Source: Stephanodiscus triporus (Eukaryota > Bacillariophyta > Thalassiosirophyceae > Thalassiosirales > Thalassiosiraceae). Taken from it: DNA of 12,521 bases. The DNA is taken from assembly GCA_036939755.1 (NCBI GenBank), contig JALLAZ010000714.1:1-12521 (forward strand). The letters are read 5' to 3'. Below, in pieces: positions 2,255-12,166 of the stretch (position 1 is its first letter; every line of letters starts with the position of its first letter). Position numbers and translations under genes: made by a program. The notes below the pieces were generated by a model. It was not told where the DNA came from, made no database searches, and saw nothing but the letters and a program-made list of their open reading frames with translations.

Positions 2255-3715
2255 TCACAGCCAATACACCACGACCGTGATGTTATCCGCGCTCCCGCGC
2301 CTCAGCGCCTCCCCGACGAGGAACGACGACGCTCCCTCCCGACCACCGTCCCGACGACGCCGCCTACCGCACGCATGCCAGCGCACTAGGTCCACCGCCT
2401 CCTGATCCCCAATCACGTCCCACAGTCCGTCGCACGCCACGATTAGGAACTCGCCGTCGGTGTATGTAGCGTCATCCCCCTTCCCATCGTAGTGGTCGTC
2501 CTCGTCCGAACGATCCTTGCGATCCCCGTCGTTATCTCCGTCGTCATCGTCGTAGTAGTCGACAATGCGCACCACCGTCGATGACACGTGAGGCCTGCCG
2601 ATGACGTACTCCTTGAGACCGTGATCGCCGATGCTACGCGCCACGGCGAGGACGCCCAATACCCGACCGCGCACGACGAACCCACCCGACTTCACGATCC
2701 TATCGACCTCGTCGGGATCTGTAGACTTGTGATCGCGGGTGAGGCGGATCGCGGTGGTAGGAGGAGGAGGAGGAAGAGGAGGAGGAGGAGGAGGCGGACG
2801 CGACGATGACGAAGACGACGCGGCCATCGGGGGTCGGGCGGTCGAATCGTCGACGTCGTCGTCGTCGTCGTCGCCCTCCCCGGCCATCATCGATCGCGAC
2901 GAAGAACCACGGCGATCATCGCCGCCGCGACGACGACGTCGACGACGGACCGCCGTCCCCGACGAAAGCACTGCCCGCGCGTCGCCGGCGTTGGCGGCGT
3001 GGATCGATATCGACTCGGGACCGTCGTCGTCGTCGTCGTCGTCGTTCGTGGGAAGAGCGCGATCGCGATTGCCACGACGATGACGATAATTGGGTATCAC
3101 CACGCAGCACGCGACTGTCGCCCCCGACGTGATTATGCCCTCGAGACGACTTCGAACGTCCGTCAGTAGGAACGCGCGCTCGAGCGCGAGACGGACGACG
3201 TCGCCCTGCATTTCCTCCTCCGTTCTCCTCGCGGTCGTAGTCATGGTCGTGATGTTCTCGTTGTCGTCGTCGTTGTCGTGGTCGTGCCTGCGCTTCTTCG
3301 ATCGCGGCCGCTCATCGTCGTCCGCCATTGTCGTAGTCGTCGTCGTCGTCGTCGTGGCATCGAACGCCGAGGAAGATAAAGAGGAGGAAGAAGAAGAAGT
3401 AGTGGACGAAGACGTCGACCCCCTTCTTCCTCCCCCCCCCCCCCCTCGCGCTCCTCGATCCCCCCTCCTCCTGGCGTCCTTTCCCTCCCCCCCCCCCTCC
3501 GTCGTCGCCGAATACGACCACTCCCCCGCGACGTTCGACGCCAGGTGATCCTCGAGGTAATCGGCGATGCGTCGTCCGCCGTGTCCGTCCATGACGGAAA
3601 CGAACGACGCGCGAGGGTCGGGTGCGCCCCACGATCCCGGACGGCGGACGACGTGCGCGTCCTCCATGGTGTTGCGGCGGGTGGGATTCATCTCCTCGGC
3701 CACGGAGACTATCAT
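2255..3715 (-). CDS. PP2C-type (PPM family) Ser/Thr protein phosphatase with low-complexity inserts
   Basis: The product is a metal-dependent phosphatase that removes phosphate from Ser/Thr, 486 aa in one exon. Family motifs appear in order: RRNTMEDAHVV (13-23; R14 matches the phosphate-binding Arg, E18/D19 the metal site), VMDGHGG (41-47; D43 metal ligand), SGATVACCVV (197-206), ANAGDARAVL (241-250), LTRDHK (325-330), RVLGVLAVARSIGD (351-364), VACDGLWDV (426-434; D429) and GSADNITVVV (474-483; D477). All metal-binding Asp are present, so it should be active. The catalytic domain is normally about 250-290 aa. The excess comes from inserts at about 66-170 (Gly, Ser, Thr runs), 216-233 (poly-Asp), 255-320 (Arg, Asp, Ser, Pro runs), 384-419 (acidic) and 450-462 (basic). 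The start at 3715 has A at -3; Met9 (codon at 3689-3691) is an alternative. No transmembrane segment or signal peptide is seen, so it is likely cytosolic or nuclear. It looks closest to the short Ptc1-like type (low confidence), and the substrate is unknown. Confidence 0.95.
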   Translation of the reverse strand: MIVSVAEEMNPTRRNTMEDAHVVRRPGSWGAPDPRASFVSVMDGHGGRRIADYLEDHLASNVAGEWSYSATTEGGGEGKDARRRGDRGARGGGGGGRRGSTSSSTTSSSSSSLSSSAFDATTTTTTTTTMADDDERPRSKKRRHDHDNDDDNENITTMTTTARRTEEEMQGDVVRLALERAFLLTDVRSRLEGIITSGATVACCVVIPNYRHRRGNRDRALPTNDDDDDDDGPESISIHAANAGDARAVLSSGTAVRRRRRRRGGDDRRGSSSRSMMAGEGDDDDDDVDDSTARPPMAASSSSSSRPPPPPPPLPPPPPTTAIRLTRDHKSTDPDEVDRIVKSGGFVVRGRVLGVLAVARSIGDHGLKEYVIGRPHVSSTVVRIVDYYDDDDGDNDGDRKDRSDEDDHYDGKGDDATYTDGEFLIVACDGLWDVIGDQEAVDLVRWHACGRRRRRDGGREGASSFLVGEALRRGSADNITVVVYWL

Positions 3716-4162
3716 GTTATTATTGCCTACAATAATACTCTACGTCGTTTTGTTGATTTGGAGGGCTTGGGGTTTGGATTCGGATTTGGATTTCGACGGG
3801 ATATATTTTCGGATGATGAATGATGGATGGGGGGAAGAAGGGGTTACGGATGATGCGACGGATAGGATGGAGAGCCGATGTGTGTGATCGGCCGGGCGAT
3901 TCCGTGGACCGGACGACGGGGAAGGGGATTCTCTCGCGTGGCATTGGCCGGCGGCGGGCGGGCGGCGAGGATTTTTGTTTTTTTTGCCTTCTACGTACGG
4001 AGCAGCGAGCGGAGGCCGGCACAACGGAAGCCGGTCGTAAGTACCATACTTATTCCTAAGTACATAGTCTATGTCAGTAGACAGGGAGGAATGTCGTTTG
4101 CTCTATCTTCCGTATGGTATTATTTAGGTAGAAACATCATTACATCGAACAAAACCGCAATA
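3716..4162. promoter_or_regulatory. Divergent promoter region between PP2C and MPC genes
   Basis: These 447 nt separate two divergent starts and must hold both promoters and 5' UTRs. Near the phosphatase side there is a short repeat of TTTGGA/TTCGGA units (about 3770-3795). Near the carrier side the sequence becomes AT-rich, with CGTAAGTACCATAC at 4036-4049. No TATA box or other element can be named with confidence. An in-frame upstream ATG for the carrier lies at 4091. Confidence 0.5.
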
Positions 4163-5516
4163 ATGGCAATGATCGGACGGCTCCTTCTCTCCCCCGCGGC
4201 GGCGACCGGACATATCTCGTCCGCGGCAAGATCTCGCCTCGCGGCGGCTCGGACGCCCGCGATCCTCCGGTCGGGGGTCTATTATCCCATCTCGGCCCGC
4301 CTTCCGCCGCCCGAGAGTCCTGCCGTCGTCGCGCGCGCCGCTCGTCGTTCCTTCGGCGACGGCGGCAAGGGCGAGGGCGGCGGCAAGGGCGGGGGCTGGT
4401 GGGACTCTGCCGAGTTCTGGGGTCGATGCGGCGCCCTCGCCGGATGGGGCATGTCCGGGGCGGCGATGTACGACGCCCTCGAATCCTCGCCGGAGCTGAT
4501 CAGTCTCAACATGACCGGCGTGCTGCTGGTGTACTCGTCGTTATTCGCGAGGTGGGCGTTCGTGGTCAGGCCGCAGAATTTGCTGCTGGCGGGATGTCAC
4601 GTCGCGAACGTTTGCGCCCAGTCGAATCAACTGCGACGGGCGGTGGAATACAAGAGGGAATGCGGGAAGGACGACGAGGTCGCCGACGTGCTGATGAAGG
4701 CCGGGGCGACGGTCGTGGCGGGCGTCGCGTGTCTCGCGTTCGGTCCGACGTTGCAGGGGATGATCGTCAATTCGAATCTCGGCCCGATATCGACCTTGGC
4801 TGCCGCGGACGCCGGGCCATTGTACGTTCATCACTTTCCCCCCCCCATCCGATCGACATTTTTTTTTTCTCTCTTTTGGTTTTGTCGTTGCCGTTGTTGC
4901 TATTGTTGCTGTTGTTGTTGTTGATGATGTTGGAATTATCGCTCATTCACGAGCGCTTGCTCCGTCACACAACACGCATCACATCCATCGTTCCTTCTCT
5001 TTCGCCTCACTAACGCCCGACGAAAATTATAACCGCCCCACACCCCCACCCTAATCCGCCTCGCATCGCCGCAGCACCGTCCACTTCTGGGCGCCGATGT
5101 CGAAATGGATGATCTCCGGTGCTTCCTTCCTCGAACTCGATCGTCCGACCGACAAGATCTCCATCGCGCAGTACACGGCATTGACGTTGACGGGATTCTT
5201 CTTCACGCGATACGCCTTGCTCGTTACTCCAGTCAATTACACGCTTTGGTGAGTAAATAATATATAAGCGTTCTCTCGCGGGAGGAGATTATTATCCCCC
5301 CCCCCCCGCCGTGGTATATATTATATTCGACTCATCATGAGTTTTTTCTTCGCACACATCGAATTGGTATTATTTTTTCCCCCTCCCCCCCCCCCCCCCC
5401 CGGGCGAAATCCCCGACACGCGATAATATATCATTTATAGCTCCGTGAACATCGCGTTGTTCGGGAGCTCGGCTTGGCATTTGGGTAGAAAGATCAAAGC
5501 CGATTTCCTTCAGTGA
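4163..5516 (+). CDS. Fused mitochondrial pyruvate carrier, MPC1-like plus MPC2-like halves
   Basis: Exons are 4163-4821, 5075-5248 and 5441-5516 (909 nt, 302 aa). Both introns are GT-AG and phase 2 (GTACGT...GCAG; GTGAGT...ATAG). MPC imports pyruvate across the inner mitochondrial membrane and is normally a heterodimer of MPC1 and MPC2. Residues 1-64 are Arg/Ala/Ser-rich without acidic residues except E51, end in AARRSFG and look like a mitochondrial presequence; a Gly/Lys stretch follows (66-78). Residues 83-165 are MPC1-like: SSPELIS (108-114), FARWAFVVRPQN (128-139), GCHVANVCAQ (144-153). Residues 220-300 are MPC2-like: FTVHFWAPMSKW (220-231), RPTDKISIAQY (243-253), TRYALLVTPVNYTL (264-277). 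The linker (166-219) holds an extra hydrophobic segment at about 179-201, flanked by Lys and Asn. The start at 4163 has the best Kozak context (A at -3, G at +4); an in-frame ATG at 4091 would add 24 residues. The MPC2-like half cannot start by itself, since TAA at 5052-5054 closes its frame with no ATG before the domain. Family assignment is firm; function as a single-chain carrier is inference. Confidence 0.9.
4822..5074 (+). other. Intron 1 of the fused MPC gene
   Basis: The donor is GTACGT at 4822 and the acceptor GCAG ends at 5074 (253 nt, phase 2). A CTAAT branch-point-like site lies at 5051-5055, 20 nt before the acceptor. The intron contains a GTT/GTC triplet repeat (about 4881-4930). 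Read through, it would add a short Cys-rich tail and stop at 4922-4924. Confidence 0.88.
5249..5440 (+). other. Intron 2 of the fused MPC gene, with C-runs
   Basis: The donor is GTGAGT at 5249 and the acceptor TTATAG ends at 5440 (192 nt, phase 2). It contains runs of 12 C (5296-5307) and 17 C (5385-5401). Splicing joins CSVNIALFGSSAW onto the second MPC domain and leads to the TGA at 5514-5516. Confidence 0.88.
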
Positions 5517-5896: not shown

Positions 5897-6526
5897 TCAC
5901 TCCTCCTTGTAATCGTCGCCGGCACCGTCGGATAGTACCTCCTTCAATTCCACCCGTATCTCGTTCAATTCGTCCCCCTTGAGCGTGTCCCGCACGATTG
6001 TGCATTCGACCTTGAGATTCACCATCTCCAACGCCCCGCGTATGACGCCGCAGTACAGGTTGGAATATTTCAATTTCCTGAGGTCGTCCAACCCCCCCGA
6101 AGGCGACGACGACGACTGCTCGTCCCCGATCGTGGGCAACTCCACGAACGTCGATAGCGGATTCTCCTGCAGGTATATCGAGAAGCTCCTCTGGTCCTGG
6201 GAGTATCCCCCCACCTCGGCCTGTATGCCCAGGAACATCCGAAATCCGACCTTCGACACGACCTCGGCGGTATCGCGCAAATTTCCGCACTGCGTTACGG
6301 CGCTGCCCAAGTTCGACGAGTCGGCCTTGCTCAGCAATTCGTCGACGCACCGCACGCCTATGGAGTGGCCGATGCGCTCGAGCTGCGCGTTGACCTCGAT
6401 GGGATCCTCGTAATCGCGAACTAACTCGGTAACGAGGGATCCGTAGGTAAGGGCGAAGAGTTCGGCGTTCGCCTTGGGCATCTTCGCCCAGAGCGTTTGA
6501 CCCGCCTGGGCCTTGGACGATGCCAT
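5897..6526 (-). CDS. TRAPP complex core subunit Bet3 / TRAPPC3
   Basis: Bet3/TRAPPC3 is a core subunit of the TRAPP tethering complexes, which activate Rab1/Ypt1 for ER-to-Golgi traffic on the cytosolic face of membranes. The single-exon product is 209 aa; the family is usually about 180-195 aa. Recognisable blocks are NAELFALTYGSLVTELVRDY (20-39), RIGHSIGVRCVDELL (51-65), LRDTAEVVSKVGFRMFLGI (83-101), NPLSTFVELP (122-131), YSNLYCGVIRGALEMV (154-169) and TLKGDELNEIRVEL (181-194). Cys80, in TQCGNLRDTAEV, sits where the family carries its palmitoylated Cys in the hydrophobic channel. Extra length comes from a Ser/Gly/Asp loop at about 134-149 and a short acidic tail. The start at 6526 has A at -3 and G at +4. 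It is a near-certain assignment; confusion with the related Trs33/TRAPPC6 is unlikely because of the RGALEMV and TLKGD blocks. Confidence 0.95.
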   Translation of the reverse strand: MASSKAQAGQTLWAKMPKANAELFALTYGSLVTELVRDYEDPIEVNAQLERIGHSIGVRCVDELLSKADSSNLGSAVTQCGNLRDTAEVVSKVGFRMFLGIQAEVGGYSQDQRSFSIYLQENPLSTFVELPTIGDEQSSSSPSGGLDDLRKLKYSNLYCGVIRGALEMVNLKVECTIVRDTLKGDELNEIRVELKEVLSDGAGDDYKEE

Positions 6527-6805
6527 GATAAAAAAATATACCTAACTATAAAATAATAATGAATTGAGGTCGGGGAGGCGAGAGTCCGACTATTATTTAT
6601 TTACTTGTCTTTTTGCCAGAGTCCAGAGAGTGCCCCGCCGCCCCCTAACCCTCGATGTATTTCTTCACCCAATTGCGACTGCCGTCGACTGACCGTAGGA
6701 ACTAATACTGTATCGTTCCGGGTTTTAAGAGCCACAACTCCCGCCCCAACAACTCCCTCCCACTCCACGTCCTCCTCCTCGCGACGCCCGCCCCGCCCCC
6801 GCACC
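6527..6805. promoter_or_regulatory. Divergent promoter region between TRAPPC3 and the reductase gene
   Basis: These 279 nt separate two divergent starts. The side next to TRAPPC3 is AT-rich (repeated ATAATAAT and TATTTATTTA), and the side next to the reductase is C-rich, without ATG in the reductase frame. No defined element can be named. Confidence 0.5.
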
Positions 6806-8751
6806 ATGGTTGGCATCGATCGCCGCATCGTCGTCGTCGTCGCCTTCGCCCTCGGCTCTGGGCCTCGTCTGTCCGCGGCCCTGTCGTCCACTCCTCGTCC
6901 TCGTCCTCCTCCTCCTACCATCGTTTCGTCGTCCTACGAGAAGTCCTCTTCCTCCTCCTCCTCCTCCTCCTCCTCCTCCTCCTCCGCCGCCGCCGCCGAC
7001 GTCGGCGGGAAGAGGAAGATTCGACGAATCGCCGTGGTCGGCGCGGGCGCCGTCGGTTCCTATTACGGCGGACGGCTGTGGGAGGCGGGAGGACGACGCT
7101 CCCGATCCCGGGGGGGGGACGTCGTAGTCGTCGACCACGAAGACGAAGACGACGAAGACGACGACGACGACGACGAAGGCGTCGAGACGACGACCGTCTC
7201 GTTCCACCTTCGAGGCGAGAACTACGACCACTGCACGAAACACGGCATAGAAGTGTCGAGTTGTCACGGCGATTTTAACATCCCCCCGTCGGAGCTGTCG
7301 GCCTATCGGACGACGGAGGACATGGCGCGGAGCGTCCTCGGCGCTCGCGCTGCTACCGATGACGGCACCAACTATCACGGCGACGAAGACGTTGACGTTA
7401 GGGGGGACGAATACTTCGATTGGGTCGTGTGCGCACTGAAATCCACCTCCGTGAGTAGTGTGTCGTTTCTGTGGCGATGATGGTTTGTTTTTGGTGCCCG
7501 GGCATATGTATTATTTTCGATTGACCGTCCTTATCGAATCCGAAATCGCCGTGTTCGTAATATATATCGTCCAACAGCTGGACGATGTCCCGAAACTCAT
7601 CGAGCCTCTACTATCCCCCGAGACACGCCTCCTCGTCATAATGAACGGCCTCGTCGAGGACGACCTCGTGTCGGCATTGCGTAGAAGGAGGCGCGAGATA
7701 CTTGGTCTCGACGGTCTCGGATGCAAGGCGATATACGGCGGGATGGCGCTAATATGCACGAATCGACTATCTCCGGGCATAATCAGTCACACGTACGGGG
7801 GGAAATTGGTTTGCGGCGTGGCCTATTCGGCGGACGCGGAGAAAAGAGGAGGCCACGACGGCGATCATTGCGGGTGGGTCGATTCGGACAGGCGTGCTAT
7901 CGCGGATCTGTTCCGACGGGCGTCGACGGTACCGTTCGTATTCGATCCCAATCTGAGGAGGGGTAGGTGAGGAAGAAAAAGGATATGCGCGTTTGTGTTC
8001 TTATATTTGTTGTTTTCCCTTTTTCTTGGCCTTCCCCCCGTCCGTCGCCCCTCCGTGGAAAAATGCGCGATGACCTAAAATAATGTACGAGGCTTACATC
8101 GCATTTTCTTATCCCTGTGAATCGCTCGCGTTCTCCCCCTCCCGCCCCCCAGATGGTGGAAGAATGTCTGGAATTTGCCGTTCAACGGGATATCGGTGAG
8201 CATGGGAGGCATCACGGTCGATAGGATAGTCGGCGATCCCGGCCTCCGAAGGCTCGCGTATGAGGTGATGGACGAGACGATCGCGATCGCCAACGCCGAC
8301 TTGAGGAAGCACGGATGCGCGGAAGATGAATTGCTCGGCGAAGAAGCGGTGAGAAAAAATTTTGCCCCATATGCCTTACTTCACAATGTTACTGCACTTC
8401 GCATCTAAATTCGGATTTTATGGCTATCTCTGTCATACTTACCCGCTGTTGCGCGCAGAAGGATGAAATGATGACTCTCTCTGATAATATGGGGTGAGAA
8501 TATTGTTGCATCTTCGTTCGCGCGTCGAACTTATTCCCAGCTCACGCCCATCAACCCTCATTCGTTCGTCGAACTGTAGGCCGTACAAGCCGTCCACCAT
8601 GCTGGATTTACACGCGAGGAAGGCGATGGAAGTGAAGTACCTGTTTCGGAAAGCCGTCGATCGCGCGAATGACCTCGGCGTTGACTGTCCTCACTTGGAG
8701 ACAATCGTTTGTCAAATAGAAGCGCATCAGAGATATCACAACCTTTACTGA
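6806..8751 (+). CDS. Ketopantoate reductase family enzyme (2-dehydropantoate 2-reductase-like)
   Basis: Exons are 6806-7450, 7578-7966, 8153-8348, 8459-8493 and 8580-8751 (1437 nt, 478 aa), all with GT-AG introns and the frame kept. The family reduces 2-dehydropantoate to pantoate with NADPH in pantothenate/CoA synthesis. The Rossmann motif VVGAGAVGSYYGGRL is at 77-91 (GxGxxG 79-84), CALKSTS at 209-215 (K212) and IMNGL at 236-240. The C-terminal domain has WWKNVWNLPFNG at 346-357, where K348 with N352 and N356 matches the catalytic Lys region. GPYKPSTMLDLHARKAME at 422-439 gives the substrate-binding Ser427 and Glu439. The family is about 300 aa. Extra length comes from an N-terminal extension with a possible signal or transit peptide (about 1-28) plus a Ser run (47-60), and from an acidic insert (about 107-125) inside the Rossmann fold before FHLRGENYD. 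The start has an ideal context (ACCATGG). Distant family members act on other substrates, so the pantoate role is likely but not certain. Confidence 0.9.
8459..8493 (+). other. 35-nt microexon of the reductase gene
   Basis: The exon is bounded by CGCAG (ending 8458) and GTGAGA (8494). It begins in phase 0 and ends with two bases of the next codon, and encodes KDEMMTLSDNM plus part of a Gly. It joins the third exon (ending GEEA) to the KPS...E segment. The flanking introns are 110 nt (8349-8458) and 86 nt (8494-8579). Confidence 0.8.
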
Positions 8752-8820: not shown

Positions 8821-10800
8821 CTATCGTTTCGGAATCATCAGTAGGGCCAATTTTGCCGCAACTGCCTCCTTCCGCGAGCTCATAAGCTCCGCAATCTTTC
8901 GCACTAAGTCTGTACTCTGACCAATAGGGGCTGCACTCGATTTCCTTCCTCTGGCAGGAAACATTTTTTCCAACACCATTTCCATCTCAGAAGTTGCATG
9001 CCCAATATCATCCTCGAATTGTCGAGACCTTTCTTTAAACTCCTCAATAGACAAGTAACTGCTCGACAATGACTCTGCACATGAGGTGATATTATGTGCC
9101 ACGGCGGAAATGTTACCCGGATGCGGCGATGATACTGCCGCAGGATTAGCTAGTTCCATTTGGACAGCTGATGATCGGAATAAATAATATTTGTTGCAAA
9201 TTTTATCCTTCCACAACTGTTTGTTGGCACCTTCATTTTCCATGTCTATTTCCTCTTCTTCTGCCTTGTTCTTGTTGTAATCATTGAGGTCACTATGATT
9301 GTTCCGCCTACCATTCTCTGTGTTGCACTCTTTATTATTCGTATCATCCTCCCTGTCATTGTTACCGGGCATCCTTGGCGACGAAGATTGAATCTTGGAC
9401 AGTTCCCCACCATACCCATCATCATCATTGTTCTTCGATCCATGAAGAAGATATGATGTTTGGTGACAGACTCCCCTCTCCTCGTCATTTTGATGTTTGC
9501 CACTGTTGCCAGTTTCCGACCCGTTCATCAACTGGGCTTGCTCCTTCTGTCCGTGCTCAAAATTCGTACTACTGCTCCCAGACTTCGACGGAGAGCTGCT
9601 CTTTTGGGGCGAAGACGCATCCGACGCACTTTCGGTCGTTCCAAGTTTCCCTCCCAGACAGCACGACCAGTCTTCTTCTACGAAGCAGGACGACTTGTAC
9701 GTCTGGGTATTCGAATGGAAGGAGCCTTGGAACGATTCTGGCCAATAGTGAAAGGCGAGACCCGATCCCGGCGGGGCCATCCTCCACGAAGAGACGGCTG
9801 CATCCCGACGGTGTTTCCTTTCCCTATTGTCAATCTCGAACTGCTGGATCAAGAAATTCCTCGCGTTTACGAGGCGGTCCTCCACGGTCTCGGCAGGTTT
9901 TGCCAGCGTACCCCAAACCCGTGATGATGGTCGGGTTGTTTCGGCGGCAGCTGCTGTCTCAATAATACCGCAATCGAAAGAAAAAACGCGAAACGTGCAT
10001 GAACCGAAGGATATTGTTAAGCTCGGTGGGAGCTGTTTTGCTATGACACATAAATTTCCCGCACGCGGGGAACCATCATCGTCACTCCTATGCCGTTTCG
10101 GAGGAGGCGAATCGTTCGTCATTTGATCTCCGACCGTGTCTGGATTGTCGTCACCAGAACTCCCCCCATCACTACCAGGGTCGTACTTGATCTCCAATAT
10201 GGCAGAATCGTCCACGTGAAACACGAAGCGGTTGCCAAATCTAAATAACAACGACCTTGAGTCGACCTCTGTGGTATCATGCTCGTCGGCCTGCCGATAT
10301 CTATCACGGGTCGAGAGGACGCCGCCCCGCACCTCTTCGAGCGCCGATCCCGAGGAAAACTTCTTCACTATTGCCGCCTCGAACGTGCAAAGCGAAGGAT
10401 CCGAGTTGACCTGATAATTCCAATCGGTTTCGCCCCCGTCCGCGTCCGTGACGACGGGGAGGCGTTTGAAAAACGCCGGCCCGGACGCGACGACATCGGG
10501 CGAATAGTCATCGCCCCTGACGCGCTTTCGGCTGGCATCATCGCGACGGTCATTTCCGCCATCGTCATCGAATCTGTTATCGTATCGCGCAGTTGGCTCG
10601 ATGGATACCACGCACGGCAAACCTTCGAGGACCAACAACGCGTTATCATCCCTGGAGGGGGTCGGCGGGGCGATTGTGGAGCCGGAGTACGCGCCTTCGT
10701 CATCGTCTTTGCCGTCGACGGATGCGACGCTGCTGTCCCATACGCCGGGAGGAAGCGGACGGAGGAAGTTCAATGATCGGAGAAACGCCGCGCGATCCAT
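8821..10800 (-). CDS. Uncharacterised 659-aa protein, mostly disordered
   Basis: I do not recognise this protein. It is one uninterrupted 660-codon frame starting in an ideal context (ACCATGG at 10800), which supports a real gene. Residues 1-22 (hydrophobic/basic, LRSLNFLRPLPPGVW) look structured. Two beta-rich blocks follow: 136-207 (CTFEAAIVKKF, SLLFRFGNRFVFHVDDSAIL) and 249-282 (LCVIAKQLPPSLTISFGSCT). Residues 305-360 form a helix-like, then aromatic segment (VEDRLVNARNFLIQQFEI, AFHYWPESFQGSF). Acidic or Ser-rich disordered tracts separate them (73-100, 210-245). Residues about 385-530 are low-complexity Asn/Asp/Glu/Ser with no repeats. The C-terminus (583-659) is charged and helical, possibly a coiled coil. 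There is no signal peptide, transmembrane segment or catalytic motif. Basic patches such as RKRVR (91-95) and PPPKRHR (232-238) could be nuclear localisation signals. The C-terminal coding half is visibly less GC-rich than the N-terminal half. Confidence 0.8.
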   Translation of the reverse strand: MDRAAFLRSLNFLRPLPPGVWDSSVASVDGKDDDEGAYSGSTIAPPTPSRDDNALLVLEGLPCVVSIEPTARYDNRFDDDGGNDRRDDASRKRVRGDDYSPDVVASGPAFFKRLPVVTDADGGETDWNYQVNSDPSLCTFEAAIVKKFSSGSALEEVRGGVLSTRDRYRQADEHDTTEVDSRSLLFRFGNRFVFHVDDSAILEIKYDPGSDGGSSGDDNPDTVGDQMTNDSPPPKRHRSDDDGSPRAGNLCVIAKQLPPSLTISFGSCTFRVFSFDCGIIETAAAAETTRPSSRVWGTLAKPAETVEDRLVNARNFLIQQFEIDNRERKHRRDAAVSSWRMAPPGSGLAFHYWPESFQGSFHSNTQTYKSSCFVEEDWSCCLGGKLGTTESASDASSPQKSSSPSKSGSSSTNFEHGQKEQAQLMNGSETGNSGKHQNDEERGVCHQTSYLLHGSKNNDDDGYGGELSKIQSSSPRMPGNNDREDDTNNKECNTENGRRNNHSDLNDYNKNKAEEEEIDMENEGANKQLWKDKICNKYYLFRSSAVQMELANPAAVSSPHPGNISAVAHNITSCAESLSSSYLSIEEFKERSRQFEDDIGHATSEMEMVLEKMFPARGRKSSAAPIGQSTDLVRKIAELMSSRKEAVAAKLALLMIPKR

Positions 10801-11341
10801 GGTAGCGGGCGGAGGAAGTCGATAGTATGACCCCTATGCCTCCGCCATTCATCATTGGATGGCGTTACCCCACGTTTGAGCAGTGAGAGTAGGACAGAAG
10901 AAGAAGTATCGCAGTGCTCGTAAGCGTACCTACTAGAGTAATACCTAGAATACTTACATACATACTCTACCTAGAATATGGTACGTAAGTAGAGAGTGGT
11001 TTTGGGACGGGCGTCCCCAACACTCCTCCGACTCCATCCCGCCGTTTTGAGCTGAGAATGAGAAGCGGCAGCGCCAGCATCATCCTTCACAGAGCTTCTT
11101 TCCATTCCTTCCCTCAACGCAACCCTCAACATTAACGTTAGTGCCGGTATTGATCTTTGGGAGGTTCACTGTCTCTAAAAGCTATAAGCCCAACGCGGCG
11201 CCCGTCTCCGCAAGAGAAATTTCATTGGAAGGCGAACGGAGAAGATTCGGGTCGAGACGGACAAAGTGCGATCGATGGCACCTACTTACTTTTGACGTTT
11301 GAGTGACCGCACACCATTTCGATCCGTATAATTGCTCCGCC
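10801..11341. promoter_or_regulatory. Divergent promoter region between the uncharacterised gene and NECAP
   Basis: These 541 nt separate two divergent starts. ACCTAGAATA occurs twice (10943-10952 and 10969-10978), within an AT-rich patch that also has GGTACGTAAGTAGAGAG (10980-10996) and its near inverted form GTACCTACTAGAG. A TGACGT core, the consensus of CRE/bZIP sites, lies at 11293-11298, 44 nt before the NECAP start. Its use is not shown. No other gene is seen. Confidence 0.5.
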
Positions 11342-12166
11342 ATGTCGCAAACGGGAGGGGACGGTGCCGACGAACGCGTGGTGGTCGAACAGCGACTCCT
11401 AAAAATCGACGAAGTCTTCATCTATCGCATCCCGCCCATGCGATCCGCGGACGGACATCGGGCGGAGGATTGGAACCTGGCCAAGCCCCTCGCGACATGT
11501 TCGCTCCTCGTCGCTCGTCGGGACAACGACCTTTGCATCAACATCATGGCCGATCGTCCCAAGCCCGGTGCGCCGGAGGGGGCGACGGAAAATTACCTAT
11601 TCGCACGGAGCGAAATCCACGTCGACGTAAAGAAGCCGAGTCAGAAACTCGAATATTGGGTCAATGCCGCGGTGGATTCGTCGCGGTACTTCGCGGTCAG
11701 GATCAAGGATTCGAGAACCGGTCGGGAGGCGTTCGTCGGAGTCGGATTCAGGGAGCGCGCCGATGCCACGAACTTTCGTATGAGTTTGGACGACTACGTC
11801 GATTCGCTCAAACGGGAGGAGAAGGCGGAGGAACTTCGCAGGCGATTCGAGGAGTCGTTGACGACGGCTGGTGGGAGCTCGAAGGATGGAGGTGACGCCG
11901 TCGACGTCGAGGAGGCGCCGCTTCCCAAGTCGTGTCTTGGTTTGAAAGAGGGGGAGAAACTTCACATCAATATCACGAGCAAACGAGCGAACTCTGCCAA
12001 TAAGCCGTCTCCCAAAGTCAAGGGCGCGGGGTCGCTGATCGGACTTAAGAAGCCGCCGCCTCCTCCCGATGTTACTATGGCGTCAGATAGCTCGAGTGAT
12101 CAGGGATCAGCTGCCAACAACACTGCATCTGATGTTGACGTTGATTGGGGTGACTTTGAGGGTTGA
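11342..12166 (+). CDS. NECAP-like clathrin accessory protein (PHear domain)
   Basis: NECAP proteins bind the AP-2 adaptor and clathrin coats in endocytosis. The product is 274 aa in one exon, almost the length of human NECAPs (about 265-275). The N-terminal PHear domain spans about 12-160: FIYRIPP (26-32), GHRAEDWNLAKP (38-49), DSSRYFAVRIKDS (112-124), GREAFVGVGFRERADATNF (127-145). A second conserved block, CLGLKEGEKLHINI (198-211), follows, then a Lys/Ser/Pro linker with a proline run (238-242). The C-terminus ends in DWGDFEG; WGDF (269-272) is a WxxF motif of the kind that binds the AP-2 alpha ear. A charged helical stretch (154-172) may be a local extension. The start at 11342 follows CGCC; no better ATG is in frame upstream. 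Composition turns AT-richer over the last 30 codons. Confidence 0.95.
   Translation: MSQTGGDGADERVVVEQRLLKIDEVFIYRIPPMRSADGHRAEDWNLAKPLATCSLLVARRDNDLCINIMADRPKPGAPEGATENYLFARSEIHVDVKKPSQKLEYWVNAAVDSSRYFAVRIKDSRTGREAFVGVGFRERADATNFRMSLDDYVDSLKREEKAEELRRRFEESLTTAGGSSKDGGDAVDVEEAPLPKSCLGLKEGEKLHINITSKRANSANKPSPKVKGAGSLIGLKKPPPPPDVTMASDSSSDQGSAANNTASDVDVDWGDFEG

Follow-up and report, generated by a model that had tools for sequence, protein, structure and literature searches.

A diatom gene predicted to encode the mitochondrial pyruvate carrier as a single chain, with MPC1-type and MPC2-type halves joined by a putative inversion helix

The human mitochondrial pyruvate carriers (MPC1/MPC2 and MPC1L/MPC2) are heterodimers of two separate proteins with no joining helix. 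The gene at positions 4163..5516 of a 12,521-nucleotide stretch of DNA from the diatom Stephanodiscus triporus (contig JALLAZ010000714.1, below "the window") raises the question of whether one chain can hold the entire carrier and, if so, how its halves are placed in the membrane. We consider it highly probable that the gene encodes a single-chain carrier composed of MPC1, a linker helix and MPC2, with the halves facing the same way. The fusion itself is already known, having been published in 2016, and is therefore less of a surprise: in the part of Traller et al. available to us (PMC5124317), one gene with MPC1 and MPC2 is apparent in C. cryptica (g13004.t1) and other diatoms, so the assumption in the initial annotation that an MPC fusion of this kind had not been described was wrong. 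The window gene is likewise a single gene, and nothing tested distinguishes it from that description. The passages of PMC5124317 on the fusion contain neither its layout, nor the linker helix, nor a structure; no description of these was found in the literature searched, the coverage of which is thin for subscription papers and bioRxiv, and so far as this literature shows, the structural reading (three helices, one, three) has apparently not been published.

The window is contig C707 of the draft assembly of the species (21.65 Mb, 1324 contigs). The gene is composed as follows, all on the plus strand:

4163..4821, +, exon 1, coding for an arginine-rich N terminus that resembles a presequence, for the MPC1-type half (residues 81-166) and for the linker as far as residue 219 (from the frame, Pfam and PDB matches)
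4640..4813, +, region coding for the linker, residues 160-217 (from hydrophobicity, alignment and models)
4670-4771, +, predicted inversion helix, residues 170-203 (transferred by alignment from the model of the orthologue P0002)
4822..5074, +, intron 1, GT-AG, directly before the MPC2-type half (from the frame; P0001 crosses the same junction)
5075..5248, +, exon 2: helices 1-2 of the MPC2-type half, including K230 (human K49) (from the frame, PDB matches and alignment)
5249..5440, +, intron 2, GT-AG (from the frame)
5441..5516, +, exon 3: final helix of the MPC2-type half, including N281 (human N100), followed by the TGA stop; missing from the gene model at NCBI (from the frame, relatives and a separate protein match)

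This gene model was tested with the start held fixed at ATG 4163 and the nearby GT and AG sites combined. Frames of more than 290 residues resulted from six combinations, and the introns 4822-5074 and 5249-5440 are the only pair that leaves the MPC2 half whole; the product has 302 residues and ends at TGA 5514-5516. A second combination gives 293 residues and keeps most of the MPC2 half. Translation could also start at an in-frame ATG at 4091; the NCBI protein begins at 4163. This protein (P0001, S. triporus ACHAW5_002555) is identical to the window protein over 92% of the length of the latter and shares the first junction; it stops at "...YTLWK" without exon 3, and therefore the last transmembrane helix is missing from the NCBI model. 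Exon 3 is supported by the N281 column, occupied in 153 of the 167 aligned relatives (a gap in 14), and by a separate protein search that matches C707:5439-5510 (71% identity, E 8.7e-4). In the alignment of relatives, P0066, P0095, P0112 and P0120 also end with "...TLW" at the same place as the NCBI model.

Are the halves really of two kinds? The Pfam family MPC (PF03650) matches the protein in two stretches, with 155 bits against a cut-off of 27 and a whole-protein E-value of 8.7e-46; an NCBIfam scan of the same protein gave no match. In the PDB, residues 81-166 match human MPC1L/MPC1 chains, while residues 215-292 match MPC2 chains. Scored alone against the solved structures, the N half reaches 62.8 bits for human MPC1L against 22 for MPC2, and the C half 62.7 bits for MPC2 against 24.9 for MPC1L. 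Since the halves prefer different partners, the protein is MPC1 joined to MPC2 and not a duplication of one of them. The initial proposal of one spliced frame with an MPC1-like and an MPC2-like domain is thus confirmed, and the two proteins that are encoded separately in the heterodimer here share one reading frame. It is by model only, through superposition on the human MPC2 and MPC1 chains, that each half is seen to have three transmembrane helices arranged as in MPC.

The fused form is found in other diatoms as well. Two protein searches gave 615 and 622 matches; the best 120 of each comprise 170 distinct proteins, including P0001, and a pattern test finds the signatures of both halves in 167 of these 170. 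Seventeen of the proteins derive from transcriptomes, 13 labelled MMETSP (which we take to be a transcriptome project) and four EukProt entries bearing MMETSP identifiers, and all of them have both halves. The readable organism names among the listed proteins are Stephanodiscus, Thalassiosira, Cyclotella, Cyclostephanos, Detonula, Ditylum, Epithemia, Striatella and Proboscia; six of the nine were checked to be diatoms, and the remaining three presumably are. The C. cryptica protein P0006 (80% identity across 74% of the window protein) is, we infer, g13004.t1 of Traller et al. A tree of 102 rows groups the window protein with P0024, the bootstrap being not yet settled. Neither the scan of viral contigs (25 stretches matched) nor that of prokaryote contigs (47) revealed a relative. 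An artefact of the assembly or gene model could be suspected from a draft in 1324 contigs and a truncated NCBI model of the same gene; against it, other diatoms have this fusion in both transcriptomes and genomes, and it is in print. We regard its probability as practically negligible and reject it on the count of 167 in 170.

The orientation of the halves depends on the linker, for which the initial annotation had proposed an extra hydrophobic segment. Such a segment is present: among the 19-residue Kyte-Doolittle windows sampled at every second position over residues 80-302, the highest value, 1.83, falls at residues 176-194, above the 1.42 at residues 268-286. Every one of the 167 relatives has a linker maximum of 1.05 or more, with a median of 1.53, and each of the other six helix regions, with boundaries set by us, has a lower median (0.46-1.35). 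The 18-residue core of the linker is free of charged residues in 155 of the 167. Between the Q-x-N-Q motif that closes the MPC1 half and the AGPF motif in the MPC2 half, the distance is 60 residues in 162 of 165 measurable proteins (61 in two and 63 in one). The constant length and conserved hydrophobic core fit a helix that crosses the membrane, because a flexible tether needs neither. In structure models of two orthologues, the linker is a single continuous 34-residue helix within a SWEET-like single-chain bundle. It can be argued that the linker only dips into the membrane or lies on it, with the halves pairing between chains (swapped dimers) or antiparallel; the segment has many Ala and Gly residues and a conserved Gly-Pro (P195 in 166 of 167), which could form a kink or a re-entrant turn. 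The continuous helix in both models and a hydrophobicity above the medians of the other helix regions speak against this, and we find it highly improbable.

With a crossing linker, the number of crossings is informative. The available part of PMC12007569 (Sci Adv 2025) describes human MPC1L and MPC2 with three transmembrane helices each, arranged about a pseudo-twofold axis normal to the membrane. To join the C end of one three-helix half to the N end of a parallel one, an odd number of crossings is required, and one is predicted. An older model of MPC1, described in the same source, has two helices with both ends in the matrix, so the linker would need zero or two crossings; our inference is that the diatom fusion agrees with the newer structures rather than with this model. 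The layout of three, one and three helices with parallel halves, as initially suggested, is supported by the sequence, the linker conservation and the two models. We believe it likely that diatoms have a complete seven-transmembrane-helix single-chain pyruvate carrier, that the MPC branch acquired an inversion helix just as SWEETs did, and that a conserved linker crossing once is natural genetic evidence for equal helix numbers and parallel placement of MPC1 and MPC2, against the two-helix MPC1 model. If this is true, it is a further case, beside SWEETs, of a three-helix dimer turned into one chain, and a natural carrier with a fixed 1:1 ratio becomes available for biochemical and structural studies. 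How MPC is oriented is disputed: PMC12007569, in the part available, puts the N termini in the intermembrane space, contrary to earlier proposals. A one-chain carrier, the halves of which cannot be mixed up, could help to settle it.

The likeness to SWEETs, also anticipated initially, is borne out at the level of models. AtSWEET13 (5xpd) and a eukaryotic SWEET (5cth, 5ctg) consist of two three-helix bundles and one joining helix, as do the models of the diatom orthologues, which align structurally to SWEETs over all helices at 11-14% identity; the layout with an inversion helix is thus seen by model only. The SWEET domain MtN3_slv does not match the window protein, a Pfam scan to E 1 giving MPC only, and the protein is SWEET-like in layout but not a SWEET member. 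Cystinosin and the KDEL receptor show 3-12% identity in the structural-comparison rows. SemiSWEET, cystinosin and the KDEL receptor have substrates other than pyruvate. MPC, semiSWEET, SWEET and cystinosin are placed in one superfamily in the part of PMC12007569 available. MtN3_slv matches do occur elsewhere in the S. triporus genome. At C248:11102-12908, each of two adjoining open frames, both roughly 300 residues long, has two of them and so resembles an ordinary SWEET gene with its two repeats; C202:17450-17695 has a single match.

Would the single chain carry pyruvate? The human pocket residues given in PMC12007569, including the roles of the pyruvate-binding lysine K49 of MPC2 and of H86 of MPC1L (as far as the available text goes), were transferred by alignment to the window protein and its relatives. 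The human heterodimers (PDB 9giv, 9mnw, 8yw6 and others; PMC12007569, seen in part) share with the diatom protein the domain types, three helices per half and the pocket residues K49, H86, N100, Y64 and F68. All 167 relatives have K49, Y64, F68, T78, L82, Y85, H86 and L96 unchanged, so that the pyruvate-site pair, K230 and H146 in the window protein, is conserved throughout; N100 is kept in all 153 ungapped relatives. Other positions differ. Human MPC2 W82 is F (F263, exon 2) and human MPC1L F71 is W (W131, exon 1) in 167 of 167, and therefore the pocket tryptophan lies on the opposite half from that in human. S35 is G in 166 of 167 and L38 is M in 164 of 167. R39, which in human MPC2 belongs to the amphipathic helix-turn-helix, is replaced by F in all 167 relatives, a loss to be expected if the linker replaces the amphipathic helix. 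According to the part of PMC12007569 available, W82A in the human carrier abolishes inhibitor binding; since W82 is F in the relatives, their response to inhibitors may differ from the human one, and weaker binding is predicted.

These residues are best read as those of an alternating-access carrier that is coupled to protons and in which H146 and K230 are central. A nuclear diatom gene would then encode the entire carrier as a single chain, the MPC1-type and MPC2-type halves each forming a predicted three-helix bundle. The conserved extra helix, judged by its hydrophobicity, fixed length and the models, would cross the membrane once, and with a single crossing both halves would be oriented alike around a central pocket, as in the human heterodimer. 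By analogy with the human carrier, pyruvate would bind between K230 of the MPC2 half and H146 of the MPC1 half and be transported together with a proton through alternating access. The linker would stand in for the N-terminal amphipathic helix of a separate MPC2, and the joining of the halves would presumably fix their 1:1 ratio. The fold and the gene can also be correct while the job differs, that is, pyruvate is exported from mitochondria or the substrate is shifted. Export was suggested in PMC5124317 (available in part), where diatoms are expected to make pyruvate by mitochondrial glycolysis, and two pocket aromatics are unlike the human ones in all relatives; the essential charged K49 and H86, and N100, are nonetheless unchanged. 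We take a changed job to be unlikely, though a serious alternative.

The N terminus was counted in 167 rows starting with Met, including the window. The first 30 residues have a median of six Arg or Lys, zero acidic residues in 91 of the 167 rows, and Arg-Arg before F, L, Y or W in 109. An Arg/Lys-rich, acid-poor N terminus with an Arg-Arg motif is the pattern of a mitochondrial presequence, which the diatom N terminus resembles. Mitochondrial precursors are often processed, and together with this presequence-like start it could mean that a single precursor is cut between the halves after import, the working carrier being an ordinary heterodimer. A disposable spacer, however, needs neither the length kept in 162 of 165 proteins nor a hydrophobic core, and we consider such cutting very improbable. 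The mature, uncut chain is estimated at about 25 kDa.

Separate MPC1 and MPC2 genes were, finally, looked for in the same genome. A profile search up to E 10 found no other PF03650 match in the S. triporus draft assembly, which is of unknown completeness; four control families were all found. The divergent P0244 as query gave this gene and one weak match (C72, E 0.28, with an internal stop). A search with the MPC2 half yielded 161 short proteins among 163 candidates. By pattern, the best 120 listed divide into 36 with linker sequence, 33 with other upstream sequence, six with too little upstream and 45 without the GPF motif; by eye, many of the 33 have divergent linkers and many of the 45 begin inside the domain. 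P0191, P0192, P0193, P0207, P0208 and P0243, among others, have unrelated sequence upstream of the MPC2 half, which may reflect intron read-through. In four rows of this listing, the name given by the source is "mitochondrial pyruvate carrier 2". Transcripts ending between the domains had been named initially as evidence against the fusion. The 17 transcriptome proteins with both halves are in its favour; the transcriptome protein P0243 (Craspedostauros australis), with the MPC2 half only behind unrelated sequence, weighs against it. P0243 may be a retained intron, which we prefer, or a separate transcript.

Among the short proteins, eleven (P0234, P0244, P0246, P0248, P0252, P0256, P0260, P0264, P0265, P0267 and P0279) have HPWP in place of HFWA of the family. 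P0234, P0244 and P0248 carry an MPC1 tail and a linker, so that at least these three are fused too. The MPC2-like pieces P0283 and P0286, with a linker-like upstream part, have 54 and 56% identity to the window MPC2 half and possibly represent a more distant lineage.

The other genes and frames in the window, according to the Pfam scan, are the following:

161-1504, cysteine-rich frame with a sub-threshold DUF7640 match
2255-3739, -, PP2C phosphatase
5897-6541, -, TRAPP component
6807-8751, +, ketopantoate reductase-like gene with introns
8821-10833, -, frame of 670 residues with no Pfam match
11303-12166, +, DUF1681 protein

The frame at 60-440, which has no Pfam match, resembles the final part of the polyprotein of a Copia-type retroelement.
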